DNA from: Myroides sp. JBRI-B21084
GTDB lineage: Bacteria > Bacteroidota > Bacteroidia > Flavobacteriales > Flavobacteriaceae
NCBI RefSeq assembly: GCF_030545015.1
Contig: NZ_CP120653.1
Span: 620,001 to 684,000 of the forward strand
Direction of reading: 5' to 3'
Length of the DNA stretch: 64,000 nucleotides
A model generated the notes under the pieces. The model made no database searches, was not told the DNA's origin, and saw nothing but the letters and a program-made list of their open reading frames with translations. This document shows, piece after piece, positions 2,345 to 9,154 of this stretch; position 1 is the stretch's first letter; every line of letters begins with the position of its first letter. The position numbers and the translations under genes are program-made.

Positions 2345-2363
2345 TATTTCTTTAAATATAACA

Positions 2364-2397
2364 CAAAAGCACGGTGAAAAGCCGTGCTTTTGTTTTT
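2364..2397 (+). terminator. rho-independent terminator of pckA
   Basis: Stem CAAAAGCACGG / CCGTGCTTTTG (2364-2374 with 2382-2392), loop TGAAAAG, then a T-rich run. Its 3' arm overlaps the proposed -33 element of the speD promoter. Confidence 0.8.
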
Positions 2398-2418
2398 AAT
2401 TTACTTTTTTTATATTTG
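2389..2418 (+). promoter_or_regulatory. promoter of the speD-led operon
   Basis: TTTG at 2389-2392 and TATATTTG at 2411-2418, separated by 18 bases, close to the Bacteroidota pattern TTTG-N19-21-TAnnTTTG. Transcription would start near 2424, which rules out an in-frame start at 2384 for speD and supports the ATG at 2447. Confidence 0.6.
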
Positions 2419-2446: not shown

Positions 2447-2803
2447 ATGCCAAACTACAATCCGGGTTTACACAAATTATTAACGCTGCAAGTAGCTGCG
2501 AACGAACTGTTAACCTCAACTCAAAAATTTATCGATTTTGCTAAACAAACTATTCAAAATTTTAATTTAGAAATAGTAGGTATATCACACCATACTTTTG
2601 ACCAAGGGGGGTATACAGTAGCAATTTGTTTAAAAGAATCGCACATTTGCATACATACGTGGCCCGAATTTAAACAACTTACGTTAGATATTTATTTGTG
2701 TAATTATTTAAACGATAATTCGCAAAAAGTAGAAGATTTAGGTGCTGTTTTTAAAGATTTTTTTAAAGCCGAAGTTCTTAACGAAACCAATGTACGTCGC
2801 TAA
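2447..2803 (+). CDS. speD: S-adenosylmethionine decarboxylase proenzyme
   Basis: Decarboxylates S-adenosylmethionine to the aminopropyl donor used for polyamine synthesis. It is a 118-residue short bacterial-type enzyme. The self-processing site ESH-x-x-IHTWPE is present: Ser65 would become the pyruvoyl cofactor, and His70 and Cys85 sit exactly where the Thermotoga enzyme has His68 and Cys83. The start at 2447 is chosen because the promoter lies inside the longer in-frame ORF. The stop shares a base with the next start (TAATG), so translation is probably coupled. It is the first gene of a six-gene operon with an aminopropyltransferase, which fits its role. Confidence 0.93.
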   Translation: MPNYNPGLHKLLTLQVAANELLTSTQKFIDFAKQTIQNFNLEIVGISHHTFDQGGYTVAICLKESHICIHTWPEFKQLTLDIYLCNYLNDNSQKVEDLGAVFKDFFKAEVLNETNVRR

Positions 2804-4203
2804 TGAAAACTACTTATCAATGCAGTGATTGTTTAAATACAACCGAATTAGCATATACTAAACTAAAACCCCAAACATTTGTTTGTCCCGATTGTTGCAG
2901 CGTATCTTTTATTAATGAAAGTACAACCGAATATGCAGGTAAATTAAACGGAAAATTTAAAAACGTTTATGCTGAGCTTAACGAAAGTATTGTTTATAAA
3001 GGGAAGACCTACTATATAGTTGGTATTTGTACCAAAACCGAAAAAGGAAGTTATGTAGATTGGAACGAATATATTTTAAGCGATTACGACGGAAATTTAA
3101 TTTTTTTAGCACACGGTAGTGATTTTAATTCTTTTTTGGAAGAAGTGGAGCTAACACCTGCTATGCAAGAACAATTAAAAGTTGGCGGAACCATTAATTA
3201 CAAAACATCGGGTTACGATTTTGATTTTGCGCAATACGCCCAAACTGTCGCTGCAAAAGGGATATTCTTTAATAAAATTTTTGAAGAATCGTACAACCGT
3301 ACTTTTCAAAATACATATTACGATACTAAATTTTTATCGGTAGAAAAATACAAAGATGTTACCGAAGTTTTTCATGGCGAATATTTAAACAAAACCAGTT
3401 TTAGAAAATTATTTGTAAAAGAACGCGAAGTGTTGTATAATAACAACAGTGTGCTTAAAAATTTAGCGTTGTTTTTTGCATTAATTTCATTAGTAATGGG
3501 CTTGCTTCATTTTATTTTAAATTATAATAATATTGATAGTTTTACTTATAAAAACAGCATTGTAAAATCAAACACAACAGTTTCACAGTTTATAAGTAGC
3601 CCTTTTAAAGTTGTTGGAAACGATAAAAAAGTGAAGTTGTCTTTTATTTCCGAAGTACAAAACGATAATGTTACATTAGATGTTTCGCTAGTGAATGAAA
3701 AAACCAATGCCACTTACGTAACCGAAACTTTTAAGCATTTTGCAAACATACAAAACCACGCTTCGGGTAACGAAATTACTTTTTGCGGTGTTGGTCAAGG
3801 AACATATCACTTAGCGTTTCATTACAGCGCGCCTACAAATATGTTAGCCACAAATTATGATGTGGACTATACAGTGAAAATAGGCGGTGTAAGCAATGCA
3901 TGGCTTTATATAGCAGTAATTTTAACTTTTTTGGTTGGTTATTTGTACTATACAAGTATTGTTAACCGTAACCATATTAACAACGTTATAAATTTTAATG
4001 ATTTGTTGCGTTATAATAATCACGAAATTTTTAAATATGCAATTGGTGTTATTGTAGTTTACATGCTAGGTAACTTTTTGTTTATATCTAATTATACATG
4101 TAATTCTTCAAAAGTTAATACCGAATTAGAAAACGCCTCGTATACAGGTAACAGAACACATTTTGTATCACGTACATATTCATCGGGAGCTTCCCATAAA
4201 TAA
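2803..4203 (+). CDS. zinc-ribbon plus DUF4178 membrane protein
   Basis: 466 residues of unknown function. The N-terminus has a zinc-ribbon pattern, Cys7-x2-Cys10 and Cys28-x2-Cys31. It is followed by a soluble DUF4178-like region (YKGKTYYIVGIC, WNEYILSD, then a glycine/Phe-rich strand pattern, roughly residues 60-130). After a large soluble part come about three membrane helices (about 222-240, 366-386, 410-430), with a predicted extracytoplasmic beta-rich stretch between the first two. The gene overlaps speD by one base and ends 6 bases before the DUF350 gene. DUF4178 proteins are known neighbours of DUF350 and polyamine genes in bacteria. A partner or scaffold role is inference. Confidence 0.72.
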   Translation: MKTTYQCSDCLNTTELAYTKLKPQTFVCPDCCSVSFINESTTEYAGKLNGKFKNVYAELNESIVYKGKTYYIVGICTKTEKGSYVDWNEYILSDYDGNLIFLAHGSDFNSFLEEVELTPAMQEQLKVGGTINYKTSGYDFDFAQYAQTVAAKGIFFNKIFEESYNRTFQNTYYDTKFLSVEKYKDVTEVFHGEYLNKTSFRKLFVKEREVLYNNNSVLKNLALFFALISLVMGLLHFILNYNNIDSFTYKNSIVKSNTTVSQFISSPFKVVGNDKKVKLSFISEVQNDNVTLDVSLVNEKTNATYVTETFKHFANIQNHASGNEITFCGVGQGTYHLAFHYSAPTNMLATNYDVDYTVKIGGVSNAWLYIAVILTFLVGYLYYTSIVNRNHINNVINFNDLLRYNNHEIFKYAIGVIVVYMLGNFLFISNYTCNSSKVNTELENASYTGNRTHFVSRTYSSGASHK

Positions 4204-4209
4204 AAAATT

Positions 4210-4422
4210 ATGCAACAAATTTTAAACGGAATAACAAACTCGGTAATCTATTCAATAGTAGGAATCGTAATTTTATTAATTGCGTACTTAATTGTAGAAA
4301 AATTAACGCCCGAAAATTCATGGAAAGAAATAGTTCAAAATAAAAACATAGCACTTGCTATTGTTTTTGCAGCATTTATTATAGGTATTGCCTTAATTAT
4401 AAGTGCGTCTTTACATGGATAA
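4210..4422 (+). CDS. DUF350 family small membrane protein
   Basis: 70 residues with two hydrophobic helices (about 13-30 and 46-66) joined by a charged loop. The C-terminal signature is NIALAIVFAAFIIGIALIISAS, typical of DUF350/UPF0719 proteins, here in a half-size form with one repeat instead of two. In E. coli a DUF350 protein (YjfL) lies in a cluster with a PspA-like protein and a glutathionylspermidine synthase-like protein, so a link with polyamines and the membrane recurs. Its last 8 bases overlap the next gene. Biochemical function is unknown. Confidence 0.82.
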   Translation: MQQILNGITNSVIYSIVGIVILLIAYLIVEKLTPENSWKEIVQNKNIALAIVFAAFIIGIALIISASLHG

Positions 4423-5929
4423 AAACAAAAGGTTTCAGCTTTTTTTACTTGTTTCGGTATTCATTGTATCAACCTGTGGCTTAATTTACGAATTAGTAGC
4501 CGGTGCATTGGCAAGTTATTTATTAGGCGATTCTGTTAAACAATTTTCATTTATTATTGGCACCTATTTGTTTTCTATGGGTGTTGGATCTTTTTTAGCC
4601 AAATACATAAAAAGAAATTTAATAGATCGATTTATAGAAATTGAACTTTTAATTGGGATTATTGGCGGATTAAGCTCGGTAATTTTATTTGTGCTTTTTC
4701 AAAAAATATCTCATTTTCAGTTCATACTGTATTTTTTTGTTTTTTTAACGGGATGTTTATCAGGTATGGAAATTCCTATACTTATGAACATTTTAAAAAA
4801 CCGTGTAACCTTTCGTGAACTGGTTTCAGATGTTTTTACGTTTGATTATATAGGCGCATTAATAGCATCGGTTTTGTTTCCAACCCTTCTAATTCCGTAT
4901 TTAGGCGTAATGGGTACGTCGTTAGTGTTTGGTATTGTTAATATTTTAGTAGCTATAACCTTATGTGTTTTTTTACGAAACGAAATTTTTAACCTGCGTG
5001 CCTTGCAAGTTAAAGCAGGTTTTTGCTTGGTTGTATTAATTACAACTTTTGCATACTCTAACAAACTATTGCAATATACCGAAAGTAATTTGTATCAAAA
5101 CAATATTATTTACAAACACAGTACACCTTATCAACGTATTATTTTAACCGAAAGCAACGGCAACTATCAATTGTTTTTAAATAACAATTTACAGTTTAAT
5201 ACAAAAGATGAATACCGATACCACGAAGTATTGGTACATCCGGCAATGGCTGCAGCAAAATCGGTTTCAAAAGTATTGGTTTTAGGTGGCGGCGATGGTT
5301 TAGCTGTACGCGAAGTTTTAAAATATAAAGATGTTAAAAAAGTTACTTTAGTAGATTTAGACGCAGGAATGACCAATTTGTTTAAAACAAACGAAATTCT
5401 TACAAAGCATAATAAAAATTCATTAAATAACTCTAAAGTTACTGTTTATAACGCCGATGCTTTTATTTGGTTGCAACAAAATAAAGAAAAATACGATGTA
5501 GTTATTATCGATTTTCCAGATCCTTCAAATTATAGTTTAGGTAAACTGTACACCACTTATTTTTATAAAACATTACACAACAGTTTAACTGCCAATAGTG
5601 TGGTTACGGTACAAACAACTTCGCCTTATTATGCGCCTAAATCGTACTGGTGTGTACATGAAACCATAGCATCAGTGTATCCCAACGTGTTAGGGTACCA
5701 CACCTATGTACCGTCGTTTGGGGAATGGGGGTTTGCACTATTTTCACCCAATAATTTGGTTCGATTAGAAAAAGTAAATCGCAAATTAAATCAACTTAAA
5801 TTTTACAATTACAATTTAAAACAATACACTATTTTTTCTGAAGATATGAAAGCAGAAAAAGTAGAAGTTAATCGTTTAGATAACCAATCGTTAGTAAGGT
5901 ATTTTGATGAAGAATGGAGCAAAATTTAA
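4415..5929 (+). CDS. membrane-anchored aminopropyltransferase (spermidine synthase-like)
   Basis: Predicted to transfer an aminopropyl group from decarboxylated AdoMet (made by the neighbouring speD product) to an amine. Residues 1-215 form about seven membrane helices; residues 225-500 are a spermidine-synthase Rossmann domain. Active-site signatures are visible: Gln260 and DEYRYHE (265-271), GGGDG (291-295), and the catalytic Asp366 in IIDFPDP. The usual Glu of vEID in the nucleoside pocket is Asp314 (VDLD). The start at 4415 is chosen over one 12 bases upstream because it gives the normal 8-base overlap. Substrate amine and membrane topology are not deducible; soluble SpeE is about 280-300 aa, so the membrane half is an addition. 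Confidence 0.85.
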   Translation: MDKNKRFQLFLLVSVFIVSTCGLIYELVAGALASYLLGDSVKQFSFIIGTYLFSMGVGSFLAKYIKRNLIDRFIEIELLIGIIGGLSSVILFVLFQKISHFQFILYFFVFLTGCLSGMEIPILMNILKNRVTFRELVSDVFTFDYIGALIASVLFPTLLIPYLGVMGTSLVFGIVNILVAITLCVFLRNEIFNLRALQVKAGFCLVVLITTFAYSNKLLQYTESNLYQNNIIYKHSTPYQRIILTESNGNYQLFLNNNLQFNTKDEYRYHEVLVHPAMAAAKSVSKVLVLGGGDGLAVREVLKYKDVKKVTLVDLDAGMTNLFKTNEILTKHNKNSLNNSKVTVYNADAFIWLQQNKEKYDVVIIDFPDPSNYSLGKLYTTYFYKTLHNSLTANSVVTVQTTSPYYAPKSYWCVHETIASVYPNVLGYHTYVPSFGEWGFALFSPNNLVRLEKVNRKLNQLKFYNYNLKQYTIFSEDMKAEKVEVNRLDNQSLVRYFDEEWSKI

Positions 5930-7520
5930 CGGCAATCGCAGGCAATTCTTTAAAACCACTTTATTCGCAATTGCTGCGCTTCCGTTTATTCAATCGTGTG
6001 AAAAAACAGTTGTAAAATTAATTTTTAAAATTACAGGTACTAATCATATTTTAGGACATAAATTACGCACGAACGATTTCCCTAAACCAACCGAAACCAT
6101 TCACGAAGATATTTTAATAATTGGTGGAGGTATTTCGGGCTTGTCGGCCGCACGTTGGTTAACCAAAAATAATGTTACAAATTTTAAATTAATAGAATTA
6201 GAAGATGATTTAGGAGGAAATTCGTTAGGTAAACAAAACGCTGTAAGTGAATATCCAGTGGCAGCACATTATTTGCCATTACCAAACCTAACTAATAAAG
6301 ATTTGCTTGATTTTTTGTATGAAAGTAACGTGATTACTCATTTTTCTGATAATGGATCACCTGTTTACAACGAATCGTATCTTTGTTTTTCGCCTCAAGA
6401 ACGTTTGTTTATTCATAATTATTGGCAAGATGGGTTGGTGCCTACTTATGGAATCACTAAAGAAGCAACCGAAGCCTTTGAATCATTCGAAAAAAAAATG
6501 CAATTTTATAAAAGTGCTGTTGGTACCGACGGAGCTTTTGCTTTTGATATCCCTTTAAATGCCTCTTCAACCGATAAAGAGTTTACTCAATTAGATACAT
6601 TTACGTTTAAAGAATGGTTAATTAAAAATGAATTAAATAACGAAACCCTTTTTGTGTACTTAAATTATTGTTGTAAAGACGATTATGGTATTGGTATAGA
6701 TAAAGTTTCGGCATGGGCTGGTATTCATTATTTTTGTTCAAGAAAAAACAGCAACCATAACGTATTAACGTGGCCTGAGGGCAACCACTTTTTATCTAAA
6801 AAGTTTAATCCTTATGTAAAAAATAAGGTTCAAAAAAACAGTTTGGTTTATAGCGTAAAAATTAAAAACAAACAAGCCGTAGTTTGTGTTTACAATAGTA
6901 TTTCTAAAAAATCTACTCAAATCATAGCTAAAAAAATAATACTTGCTACACCGCAATTTGTAAATGCTTATTTGTTAGAAAACAGAAGTAAACTTACCAC
7001 AAAGTTTCAATACGCACCATGGATAACAGCCACATTAACAGTTAAAAAGTTTCCGGTGGGCGAGGGGGCATCGCTTTCGTGGGATAATGTAATTCACAAC
7101 GGTTTTGGATTAGGGTATATTTACAACCAGCATCAAACCTTAAATCAGTACCATCCGCCTTTTTCAATAACATATTACGCAGCGTTATGTGCAAACGATT
7201 TAAAAACAGAACGTAGAAATTTGTTAACAAATAGTGATTATTATTGGAGAAATATTGTTTTAAACGATTTAGAAAAAGCGCATTATGGCATATCAAACGA
7301 AGTTTTAGAAATGGAAATTCACAAAAAGGGACATGGAATGATTAGTCCTTTTCCTAATTTTATTTTTTCAGAAGAAATTAAAACTGCCGCGCACCCAATC
7401 AATCAAACCATTTACTTTGCGCATTCAGATTTAAGTGGTATTTCAATTTTTGAAGAAGCATTTTATCAAGGAATTAAAGCAGCTAAACAATTGTTACATG
7501 ACTCAACCTTGGATACATAA
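5907..7520 (+). CDS. Tat-exported FAD-dependent amine oxidase-like oxidoreductase
   Basis: 537 residues. The N-terminus carries a twin-arginine motif, NRRQFFK (Arg11, Arg12), a hydrophobic stretch and LPFIQSC, where Cys31 could be a lipobox cysteine, so a folded flavoprotein attached outside the cytosol is likely. The FAD-binding motif DILIIGGGISGLSAARW (about 68-84) and a downstream ELEDDLGGNS segment place it in the NAD(P)/FAD amine-oxidase superfamily. The TTG three bases upstream is a possible start, but ATG 5907 is preferred. It overlaps the aminopropyltransferase by 23 bases, suggesting it acts on that product or a related amine; this is inference. Confidence 0.78.
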   Translation: MKNGAKFNGNRRQFFKTTLFAIAALPFIQSCEKTVVKLIFKITGTNHILGHKLRTNDFPKPTETIHEDILIIGGGISGLSAARWLTKNNVTNFKLIELEDDLGGNSLGKQNAVSEYPVAAHYLPLPNLTNKDLLDFLYESNVITHFSDNGSPVYNESYLCFSPQERLFIHNYWQDGLVPTYGITKEATEAFESFEKKMQFYKSAVGTDGAFAFDIPLNASSTDKEFTQLDTFTFKEWLIKNELNNETLFVYLNYCCKDDYGIGIDKVSAWAGIHYFCSRKNSNHNVLTWPEGNHFLSKKFNPYVKNKVQKNSLVYSVKIKNKQAVVCVYNSISKKSTQIIAKKIILATPQFVNAYLLENRSKLTTKFQYAPWITATLTVKKFPVGEGASLSWDNVIHNGFGLGYIYNQHQTLNQYHPPFSITYYAALCANDLKTERRNLLTNSDYYWRNIVLNDLEKAHYGISNEVLEMEIHKKGHGMISPFPNFIFSEEIKTAAHPINQTIYFAHSDLSGISIFEEAFYQGIKAAKQLLHDSTLDT

Positions 7521-8511
7521 AAAACAAACCGATTTGCTTTTCATTATTGCGCCACCTTTTTTGGTTGCATTATTGGTGTGTATGTTTCACAGCCAGTTTA
7601 CAGTAATTCAGCAAAAATTTTCGTTTATAACGTGGTTGTTTTTTATTGTTTTTATTGATGTTGCTCACGTTTACGCATCGCTTTTTAAAACCTACTTGAG
7701 TAAAACCGAACTAAAAAAACACAAAAAATTGTTTACGTGGGTACCTATTTTAAGTTTATTTGTGGGCAGTTTGTGCTATTTAGTTAGCGCTTCTTTTTTT
7801 TGGGTTGTGTTGGCTTATATTGCTGTTTTTCATTTTATTAGACAACAATATGGTTTTATGCGTATTTATAGTAGAGCCGAAGTTAAAACTAGAAAAAAGC
7901 TTTTGTTTGATAAAATAGTAATTTACAATGCAACAATTTATCCAATGATGTTTTGGTTTTTAAACCCAAACCGAAACTTTAATTGGTTTATGCCTAATGA
8001 GTTTCTACAAATAAATAGCCCTTTAATTAGCCAAATACTTTTTATAGTTTATTTGATTGTTTTTTTTGTGTATTTAATAAATTTAATATGGGTTTATAAA
8101 ACATGCAAGTACTTTAATTTGCCTAAAACGTTATTAATTTTAGGTACGTATTTATCATGGTATTTAGGAATTGTACATTACAATAACGAACTTATTTTTA
8201 CGGCTTTTAACGTGGTTTCTCATGGTGTGCCTTATATGGCGTTAATTTATTTTACACAATCTGCTCAAAATAGTGGTTTTAAATTTATAAAAGAAAAATG
8301 GGCGTTGCCTTTTTTATTTGTGATTGTTTTATTGATTTTAGCTTTTGTTGAAGAGTTTATTTGGGAAGTTACCGTTTGGCAAGAACATATTTATGTAGAC
8401 GATACTTGGTATATGCCGCAATTTCTTCATTTTATTTGGATTCCTTTATTAGCTTTGCCTCAAATTACTCATTATGTTTTAGATGGATTTATTTGGAAAT
8501 CGAAAAAATAA
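7498..8511 (+). CDS. polytopic membrane protein with conserved-looking His motifs, unknown
   Basis: 337 residues and about eight hydrophobic helices. Polar motifs sit in or next to helices: IDVAHVYASLFKTYL, FHFIRQQYGFMRIY, NVVSHGVPYMALIY and ITHYVLDGFIWK. His residues next to Asp, Arg, Gln and Tyr at membrane faces look like metal or cofactor ligands rather than plain helix packing, as in membrane oxidases and hydroxylases; this is inference. The start at 7498 overlaps the FAD gene by 23 bases; the longer in-frame start would overlap it by 86. It ends the operon. I do not recognise a named family. Confidence 0.7.
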   Translation: MTQPWIHKKQTDLLFIIAPPFLVALLVCMFHSQFTVIQQKFSFITWLFFIVFIDVAHVYASLFKTYLSKTELKKHKKLFTWVPILSLFVGSLCYLVSASFFWVVLAYIAVFHFIRQQYGFMRIYSRAEVKTRKKLLFDKIVIYNATIYPMMFWFLNPNRNFNWFMPNEFLQINSPLISQILFIVYLIVFFVYLINLIWVYKTCKYFNLPKTLLILGTYLSWYLGIVHYNNELIFTAFNVVSHGVPYMALIYFTQSAQNSGFKFIKEKWALPFLFVIVLLILAFVEEFIWEVTVWQEHIYVDDTWYMPQFLHFIWIPLLALPQITHYVLDGFIWKSKK

Positions 8512-8581: not shown

Positions 8582-9154
8582 ATGAAAAAGATATTACTTT
8601 TAATGGTTGCAACAATGTTTTCGGTTGCAACATTTGCCCAAACAAAGTATAGTGTTGATACTTACCATTCGTTTTTAAACTTTTCTGTAGGTCATATGGG
8701 TATTTCTTTTGTTGATGGTAGAATGGATAAATACCAAGGTACTTTAGAGTTGACAAATGAAGATATTACTACAGCTAAGTTTAATTTTACAATTGATGCA
8801 AATTCTGTAAATACTGGTATCGACGCACGTGATAAACATTTACGTTCAGCTGATTTTTTTGAAACTGAAAAATACAACGATATTAAATTTGTATCAACAG
8901 CAGTTAAAAAAGAGGGTAAAAATTATAAATTACATGGAAATTTAACCATTAAAAATGTAACAAAGCCTGTTGTTTTTGATTTAGTTTATGGCGGATTGTT
9001 AAAAGACGACGGTAGAGGTAATCAAAAAGTAGGTTTTCAGGCAAAAACAACTATTGATAGAACTGCTTTTAATATTAACTACGATCCAACAGGTATGGGT
9101 GTAGCAAAGGATGTTACTTTCAATGTTAATTTAGAATTCACGAAAGCTAAATAA
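8582..9154 (+). CDS. YceI family periplasmic protein
   Basis: 190 residues: signal peptide ending ATFAQ (cleavage near residue 20), then a lipocalin-like YceI barrel. Family features seen: YSVDTYHSFLNFSVGHMGIS, GRMDKYQGTLEL, DARDKHLRSADFFE, FVSTAVKKEGKNYKLHGNLTI-type strands, and a C-terminal DRTAFNINYDP. YceI proteins bind long isoprenoid or amide lipids in their cavity; the ligand here is unknown. Length is normal. Confidence 0.92.
   Translation: MKKILLLMVATMFSVATFAQTKYSVDTYHSFLNFSVGHMGISFVDGRMDKYQGTLELTNEDITTAKFNFTIDANSVNTGIDARDKHLRSADFFETEKYNDIKFVSTAVKKEGKNYKLHGNLTIKNVTKPVVFDLVYGGLLKDDGRGNQKVGFQAKTTIDRTAFNINYDPTGMGVAKDVTFNVNLEFTKAK

Follow-up and report, generated by a model that had tools for sequence, protein, structure and literature searches.

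On which acceptor does a spermidine synthase fused to a membrane part act? For such fusions this question has reportedly been open since 2019, and it is raised again by an operon of Myroides sp. JBRI-B21084. The stretch of DNA analysed, hereafter the window, comprises 64,000 nucleotides (GCF_030545015.1, NZ_CP120653.1, positions 620,001-684,000 of the forward strand), and the operon occupies positions 2447-8511 of it as six open reading frames (ORFs) on the same strand; window coordinates are used throughout. The products are the S-adenosylmethionine (AdoMet) decarboxylase SpeD, a DUF4178 membrane protein, a short DUF350 protein, a fusion of seven transmembrane segments (7TM) with a spermidine synthase (the transferase), a twin-arginine flavoprotein and a His-rich membrane protein (the last protein). 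What can be said of the function of the operon comes from comparison of sequences, not from chemistry. Tentatively, the comparison points to the C-terminal lysine of a membrane-anchored tail as the residue that the transferase would aminopropylate. In the window the DUF4178 ORF finishes with this tail (...SSGASHK), the conserved -HK end of which is a seventh element of the operon, overlooked in an earlier note on this DNA.

A lysine-ended tail next to the transferase

Relatives were taken from a transferase scan of named sequences, and the best 80 of the 578 relatives are referred to here as the named loci. They are no random sample because they are the nearest relatives, and 21 of them have short flanks. 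Short ORFs located after DUF4178 and before DUF350 or the transferase were first listed, and many of them, amid unrelated ones, proved to end in -HK. Ends resembling HK or GK were then sought, which gave a collection of 86 tails in which at least three loci are present twice. The last residue is lysine in all 86, as the filter dictates, and it is preceded by histidine in 84 and by glycine in two. A tail is present in 76 of the 80 named loci: as a separate protein in 73, fused to DUF4178 in two (L078, L079) and in a frame of 169 amino acids (aa) in one (L147). The separate proteins (45-83 aa) are encoded just upstream of the transferase and carry a flexible tail that ends in -HK or, twice, in -GGK. 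Free-standing tails are net positive, with a hydropathy of at least 1.6 in 66 of the 86. The part behind the hydrophobic segment has a median length of 30 residues and is divergent, with many S, G, R, T and N residues. The tail is the end of a DUF4178 protein of 464-478 aa in the window, in its near relative L071 and in L078, L079 and L046, and in the window protein a hydrophobic segment lies directly before it.

An HK-ended ORF, with its end located from 650 bases before to 40 bases after the start of the transferase frame, was found in 74 of the 80 transferase regions as opposed to 2 of 629 control regions of the same loci; in two further named loci the tail ends in -GGK. The histidine codon in the 84 HK tails is CAC in 44 and CAT in 40, and because this wobble base varies, selection appears to act on the residue. 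The possibility that -HK is a DNA-level artefact of the start of the next gene was ruled out by the variable wobble base together with the control regions without HK. Since the lysine codon is AAA nearly throughout, also in loci of high GC content, a DNA-level contribution to its conservation may exist. Beyond the named loci, ten further transferase loci inspected by eye have a tail ending in lysine, and one (L048) has none. In L047, L049, L050 and L051, which have divergent transferases, a lipoprotein-like protein ends in -FGK. The tails in 6 of the 13 plasmid records matched with the L049 transferase end in SGK, RVK, SSGK, HGK, SHK and SHK, the starts in L183 and L185 being provisional.

Genes for PF03738 ligases, which were present in 17 of 198 genomes (19 loci), provide a comparison. 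A tail partner was picked, by eye, in 15 of these loci, and these tails end in G (seven), S (six), A (one) or L (one) and never in K; one of them is that of L048. In E. coli, YjfM ends in -HWGG and YgiB in -SMGG, and both adjoin genes annotated as peptide-spermidine ligases. As an amide ligase needs a carboxylate and an aminopropyltransferase an amine, the last residue of the tail fits the chemistry of the neighbouring enzyme. At L048 (7120-10846), both conjugation types occur together: the strand that encodes SpeD also encodes a PF03738 ligase and a -GG tail, and the opposite strand encodes a membrane transferase.

The transferase and the decarboxylase

The transferase matches NF002956 over its full length (positions 16-520 of 522) with 640.8 bits against a cut-off of 472. 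It contains the catalytic Asp pair and the GGGDG motif, and its catalytic residues align with those of E. coli SpeE. D366, D369, Y269, H270 and Q400 are invariant in 93 transferase sequences. On the acceptor side, the loop IPTYYGGIMTF of E. coli SpeE corresponds to VPSF--GEWGF, which is two residues shorter and has Phe in place of Tyr; the Trp-containing N-terminal stretch of E. coli SpeE has no counterpart. The shorter loop and the absent stretch may open the acceptor pocket. With loop limits placed by eye, the average number of Lys plus Arg residues (K+R) in successive loops of the 93 homologues is 1.45, 0.41, 2.35, 0.53, 3.39, 0.69 and 2.58, after which the seventh hydrophobic segment follows. 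Given these alternating charges, an N-terminus inside and a seventh segment before the domain, the positive-inside rule would place the transferase domain outside.

SpeD produces decarboxylated AdoMet, and the SpeD of the window is probably a true AdoMet decarboxylase. Its S65, H70 and C85 are the counterparts of S63, H68 and C83 of the Thermotoga maritima enzyme; S65, H70 and P73 are invariant in an alignment of 74 relatives, in which the conservation of C85 does not exceed 0.85. The protein passed the PF02675 cut-off of 25 bits and missed, with 68 bits, the curated cut-off of TIGR03330 (75.65). The proline of its HTWPE motif is, in our reading, the one said to separate class 1b AdoMet decarboxylases from arginine decarboxylases. 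This proline and the partner transferase argue against a neofunctionalised ornithine or arginine decarboxylase, a candidate that was rejected. The last residue of SpeD, Arg118 (2798-2800), is identical in all 74 aligned sequences.

The genome (2.51 Mb in a single contig) has one PF02675 gene and one strong PF01564 gene, plus two weaker PF01564 matches (43.9 and 22 bits). It also carries a PF01916 (SpeY-type) gene (134.9 bits) directly 3' of a gene with an ornithine/arginine decarboxylase N-terminal domain. SpeY makes homospermidine, and because the SpeY-type gene sits beside the decarboxylase gene, a second polyamine route is likely. The single PF00278 match above cut-off looks like lysA, and no match to the PF03738 ligase was obtained in this genome.

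The flavoprotein and the last protein

The flavoprotein scored 14.3 bits with PF01593 (Amino_oxidase), for which the cut-off is 19.8, and a Novosphingobium relative reached 47.6. Comparison with sequences of solved structures gave amine oxidases and spermidine dehydrogenase, mostly over the start that binds flavin adenine dinucleotide (FAD), with E values of 0.0016-0.1. An R[RK]x-hydrophobic pattern occurs near the start of 62 of the 67 full-length flavoproteins of the named loci, with a Cys behind it in 54. The window protein has RRQFF, as expected of a substrate of twin-arginine translocation (Tat), and TatC is encoded in the genome (218.7 bits). Its IQSC fits a lipobox, and a lipobox-like sequence follows the twin Arg in 15 of 67 relatives.

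The last protein belongs to no Pfam family, and no NCBIfam family was convincing, likewise for its distant relatives L037 and L039. Across 67 sequences, D54, H57, H112, R115, Q116 and H242 show no variation, and the conservation of H325 is 0.99. The AlphaFold model is all-helical with a mean predicted local distance difference test score of 76.6. A metal-dependent oxygenase would be a guess. Weak relatives of about 390-450 aa are found in L037, L039 and others up to L044; in the first two, DxPH, HVVRQHYGF and, at the C-terminus, HHYFxDQxIWK are retained as judged by eye. No operon genes were recognised by eye around the weak relatives in five short loci. In L046 (4743-6797; genome G002) a gene with an M48 peptidase domain lies 3' of the flavoprotein gene, in the usual place of the last gene.

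Organization of the operon

Table 1 Features of the operon and its surroundings in the window (bit scores in brackets)
Feature	Position	Strand	Remarks
speD, class 1b AdoMet decarboxylase, 118 aa	2447..2803	+	PF02675 (76.9)
DUF4178 membrane protein, 466 aa	2803..4203	+	PF13785 (33.9); hydrophobic segments near 223-235, 365-380, 417-425
Tail, residues 434-466 of the DUF4178 protein, ending in -His-Lys	4102..4200	+	limits set by hand; CAT AAA at 4195-4200
DUF350 short form, 70 aa, two hydrophobic segments	4210..4422	+	PF03994 (57.3)
7TM-spermidine-synthase fusion, 504 aa, membrane part about 1-215	4415..5929	+	NF002956; PF01564 (126.1)
Twin-arginine FAD-type protein (flavoprotein), 537 aa	5907..7520	+	NAD_binding_8 (32.1)
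Last protein, membrane, 337 aa	7498..8511	+	no Pfam/NCBIfam family; conserved D54, H57, H112, H242, H325
YceI-family gene, downstream	8582..9154	+	not counted in the operon; present in near relative L071 too
Terminator-like hairpin between pckA and speD	2363..2393	both	13 pairs on +, 12 on -, 6 GC
Bacteroidota-type promoter-like site TTG-N18-TATATTTG	2390..2418	+	28 bases 5' of the speD ATG

Several statements of the earlier note agree with these data. The six ORFs are joined as it had described, with an overlap of 1 base (2803), a gap of 6 (4204-4209) and overlaps of 8 (4415-4422), 23 (5907-5929) and 23 (7498-7520). The active site of SpeD, with the three residues and the proline named above, is intact. 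Four products are membrane proteins, hydrophobic segments being present in DUF4178 (three), DUF350 (two), the transferase (about seven) and the last protein (several). The predicted export of the flavoprotein fits because RRQFF, a hydrophobic stretch and C31 occur at its start. The neighbourhood of DUF350 and a polyamine-ligase gene in E. coli was also correctly given: yjfL adjoins yjfC.

The promoter-like site upstream of speD was found with what we take to be the Bacteroidota promoter consensus. Transcription of the operon could start there; the site is weak evidence because 3.63 matches were expected in the window anyway, where six were found. The pattern with a 19-base spacer has no site at the operon, and a sigma-70 scan (31 matches, 35.8 expected) was uninformative.

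Distribution of the gene set

Two surveys were made, of 199 genomes of the genus and, separately, of 148 genomes of the phylum. In the genus, the last gene occurs in 40 genomes, a transferase over the cut-off in 42 and SpeD in 45, and all 40 carry all three. In match coordinates, the transferase precedes the last gene by 1575-1599 bases in each of the 40, and SpeD lies on the contig and strand of the transferase in 41 of the 42, the remaining pair being on different contigs. As every one of the 40 genomes shows this one spacing and distant loci carry the set again, the linkage is beyond chance. The transferase occurs without the last gene in two genomes (G187, G341), in which the four-gene core is kept; SpeD occurs without a transferase over the cut-off in G294, which has a split copy, in G317 and in G233. 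This distribution indicates that the unit is mostly gained or lost as a whole. The split transferase (L067, 2788-4277) lies in two frames in an assembly that is 76% complete and is perhaps an assembly error. At L074 (9468-9818) in G233, an orphan speD lies by a lipoprotein-like gene that, by eye, looks like the one adjoining the four genes of L063, the arrangement that a loss of DUF4178, DUF350 and the transferase would leave.

In the phylum survey, a transferase exceeded the cut-off in eight genomes, and the last protein was matched in 11, twice strongly (508.8 and 400.2 bits) and nine times weakly (38-60 bits). Among the named loci, DUF4178 is present in 76, the flavoprotein in 74, DUF350 in 71, SpeD in 66 (doubtful in L149) and the last protein in 60, and all six families lie on one strand in 52, among them some metagenome-assembled genomes that bear the labels of other phyla. 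The gene order of the window is the commonest in Bacteroidota loci; in L130, L141, L145, L157 and a Novosphingobium plasmid, SpeD instead lies 3' of one of the two genes for flavoprotein and last protein. Both flavoprotein and last protein are encoded in L130-L134, L143 and L144, which are labelled Alphaproteobacteria, Leptospiraceae, Acidobacteria, Deltaproteobacteria, FCPU426 or only Bacterium; these labels may be wrong since all are metagenome-assembled genomes or bins. The search for co-occurrence of the six families, suggested in the earlier note, thus showed that the gene set is kept beyond close relatives. Ion-channel genes adjoin or lie within two operons with divergent transferases (L050, 14297-15352, PF07885 with PF02254; L051, 7008-7802, PF00520).

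Relation to known systems

The earlier note had considered the operon the best candidate in the window for an uncharacterised system. It is less new than this suggests: the core has already been partly described, one publication giving 7TM-spermine synthase, DUF350, DUF4178 and a lipoprotein as one gene group (PMC11237479). The operon extends this core by flavoprotein and last protein, and the extension is conserved beyond close relatives. The CesT/Tir-PspA operons in that source, with a 7TM-spermine synthase, YjfL/DUF350, DUF4178 and the Ctha_1186 lipoprotein, have the transferase fusion, DUF350 and DUF4178 in common with the window. The window operon differs in that it lacks a PspA-like ORF, has SpeD, the flavoprotein, the His-rich protein and a short DUF350, and carries the tail fused to DUF4178 where those operons have a lipoprotein. 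PspA and CesT/Tir-like families were absent from the six operon products, to which that search was confined. L049 and L050, with their -FGK proteins, resemble the CesT/Tir-PspA type by eye. For a related ligase-type group, the same source gives AdoMet decarboxylase and polyamine oxidase in variants (PMC11237479); SpeD and DUF350 are shared with the window, as is an oxidase if the flavoprotein is one, and an ATP-grasp ligase stands there in place of the membrane transferase. The published view that such systems tie polyamine chemistry to the state of the membrane is compatible with aminopropylation of the tail lysine (PMC11237479). Li et al. 2019 (Biochem J 476:2579) is among the works cited there.

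The E. coli groups yjfIJKLMC and ygiBC resemble the window in that an envelope protein with a flexible tail is encoded beside a polyamine-conjugating enzyme, and yjfL encodes a DUF350 protein; there, however, an ATP-grasp ligase and -GG ends are found, and in the window an aminopropyltransferase and a Lys end. Peptide-spermidine ligases were reportedly described by Pederick and colleagues in 2023. Li and colleagues are said to have linked SpeD to an MFS-spermidine synthase fusion and DUF350 in 2019 and to have suggested a substrate other than putrescine; SpeD, membrane-fused synthase and DUF350 are common to that setting and the window. In the hypusine pathway an aminoalkyl group is placed on a Lys side chain and an oxidative step follows, as proposed here; hypusine formation uses an enzyme of another fold, an aminobutyl group and a soluble translation factor as target. 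Among the literature matches listed, no title or start of an abstract concerned a C-terminal Lys tail in these operons or protein aminopropylation, which does not show absence from print.

Weighing the candidate acceptors

In the proposed scheme, SpeD would make decarboxylated AdoMet in the cytoplasm and the 7TM-fused transferase would use it to place a 3-aminopropyl group on the C-terminal Lys of the tail, at the amine of the side chain; in the window this tail is the end of the DUF4178 protein. The usual acceptor, putrescine, is similar to the aminobutyl side chain of lysine, and compared with deoxyhypusine the product would therefore have one carbon less. In the simplest arrangement, the transferase domain, the tail and the flavoprotein would all lie beyond the inner membrane. 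Completion of the product, by oxidation or otherwise, may fall to the His-rich last protein and the flavoprotein, the latter being of amine-oxidase type, and DUF350 and DUF4178 may assemble the complex. A broader version is more doubtful: in several phyla, extracytoplasmic N-epsilon-(3-aminopropyl)lysine would be formed on the tail's C-terminal Lys and finished by a Tat-exported amine oxidase and the His-rich protein, and together with the Gly/Ser/Ala-ended ligase-type tails this would form a wider class in which the chemistry could be read from the last residue.

The earlier note had envisaged an aminopropylated compound made at the membrane. The membrane-fused transferase with its catalytic residues agrees with that; the favoured acceptor, the C-terminal Lys of a small membrane tail, is not a small compound. 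A view near to that of the note, in which the transferase makes an unusual membrane polyamine from a small diffusible amine and the -HK tail is a sensor or docks into the acceptor pocket, has those catalytic residues in its favour, but is rather unlikely, as it does not alone account for small-residue ends at ligase loci as opposed to Lys at transferase loci. The same variation of the tail end with enzyme class, in the chemically expected way, makes it improbable that the lysine stays unmodified, -HK being a structural end fitting DUF350 or the transferase while the operon acts on something else; a conserved end is, however, no proof of modification. A membrane lipid head group, processed by flavoprotein and His-rich protein, would suit a membrane-fused transferase and the predicted helices of the last protein with their conserved His, but no pointer to lipid was seen in the sequences, and this too has little probability. 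Ordinary spermidine synthesis by speD and a membrane-bound SpeE is very improbable. In its favour, the genome has no other PF02675 gene and no other strong PF01564 gene; against this stand the SpeY-type gene beside the decarboxylase gene, the presence of the transferase in just 42 of 199 genus genomes, the pocket differences from E. coli SpeE and the several additional linked genes. Such fusions, moreover, reportedly failed to replace spermidine synthase in the 2019 work of Li and colleagues.

A number of points weigh against aminopropylation of the tail lysine. We know of no enzyme of the spermidine-synthase fold that acts on a protein, and the proposal is an inference from comparison. An outer catalytic domain would need decarboxylated AdoMet outside, for which no carrier has been shown. 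The stretch behind the seventh segment has a K+R of 2.03 and an Asp plus Glu of 2.47, unlike the other outer loops, which are low in K+R; the second hydrophobic segment is weak (1.48), the loop limits were placed by eye, and a re-entrant segment would invert the topology. For free-standing tails, the charges leave the orientation unsettled (K+R within 12 residues of 1.95 on the N side and 1.35 on the C side). The collection of tails was filtered for HK and GK ends, and tails of other loci were chosen by eye. No Lys tail was found in four of the 80 named loci (L149, L151, L155, L156) or in L048, the transferase of which lies near a ligase with a -GG tail. Retention of the lysine in loci that yielded no flavoprotein (L109, L111, L063, L064, L137, L150) also favours a structural end, and a C-terminal Lys might be conserved for docking or sensing.

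Significance

If aminopropylation of the tail lysine is true, a hypusine-like mark would exist in bacterial envelopes, and the transferase-type and ligase-type gene groups would be joined in one scheme. The near-invariant C-terminal Lys on a partner protein offers a concrete and cheaply testable candidate for the acceptor of the membrane-fused synthases. Two further enzymes, the flavoprotein and the last protein, would be named as parts of the pathway in many Bacteroidota.

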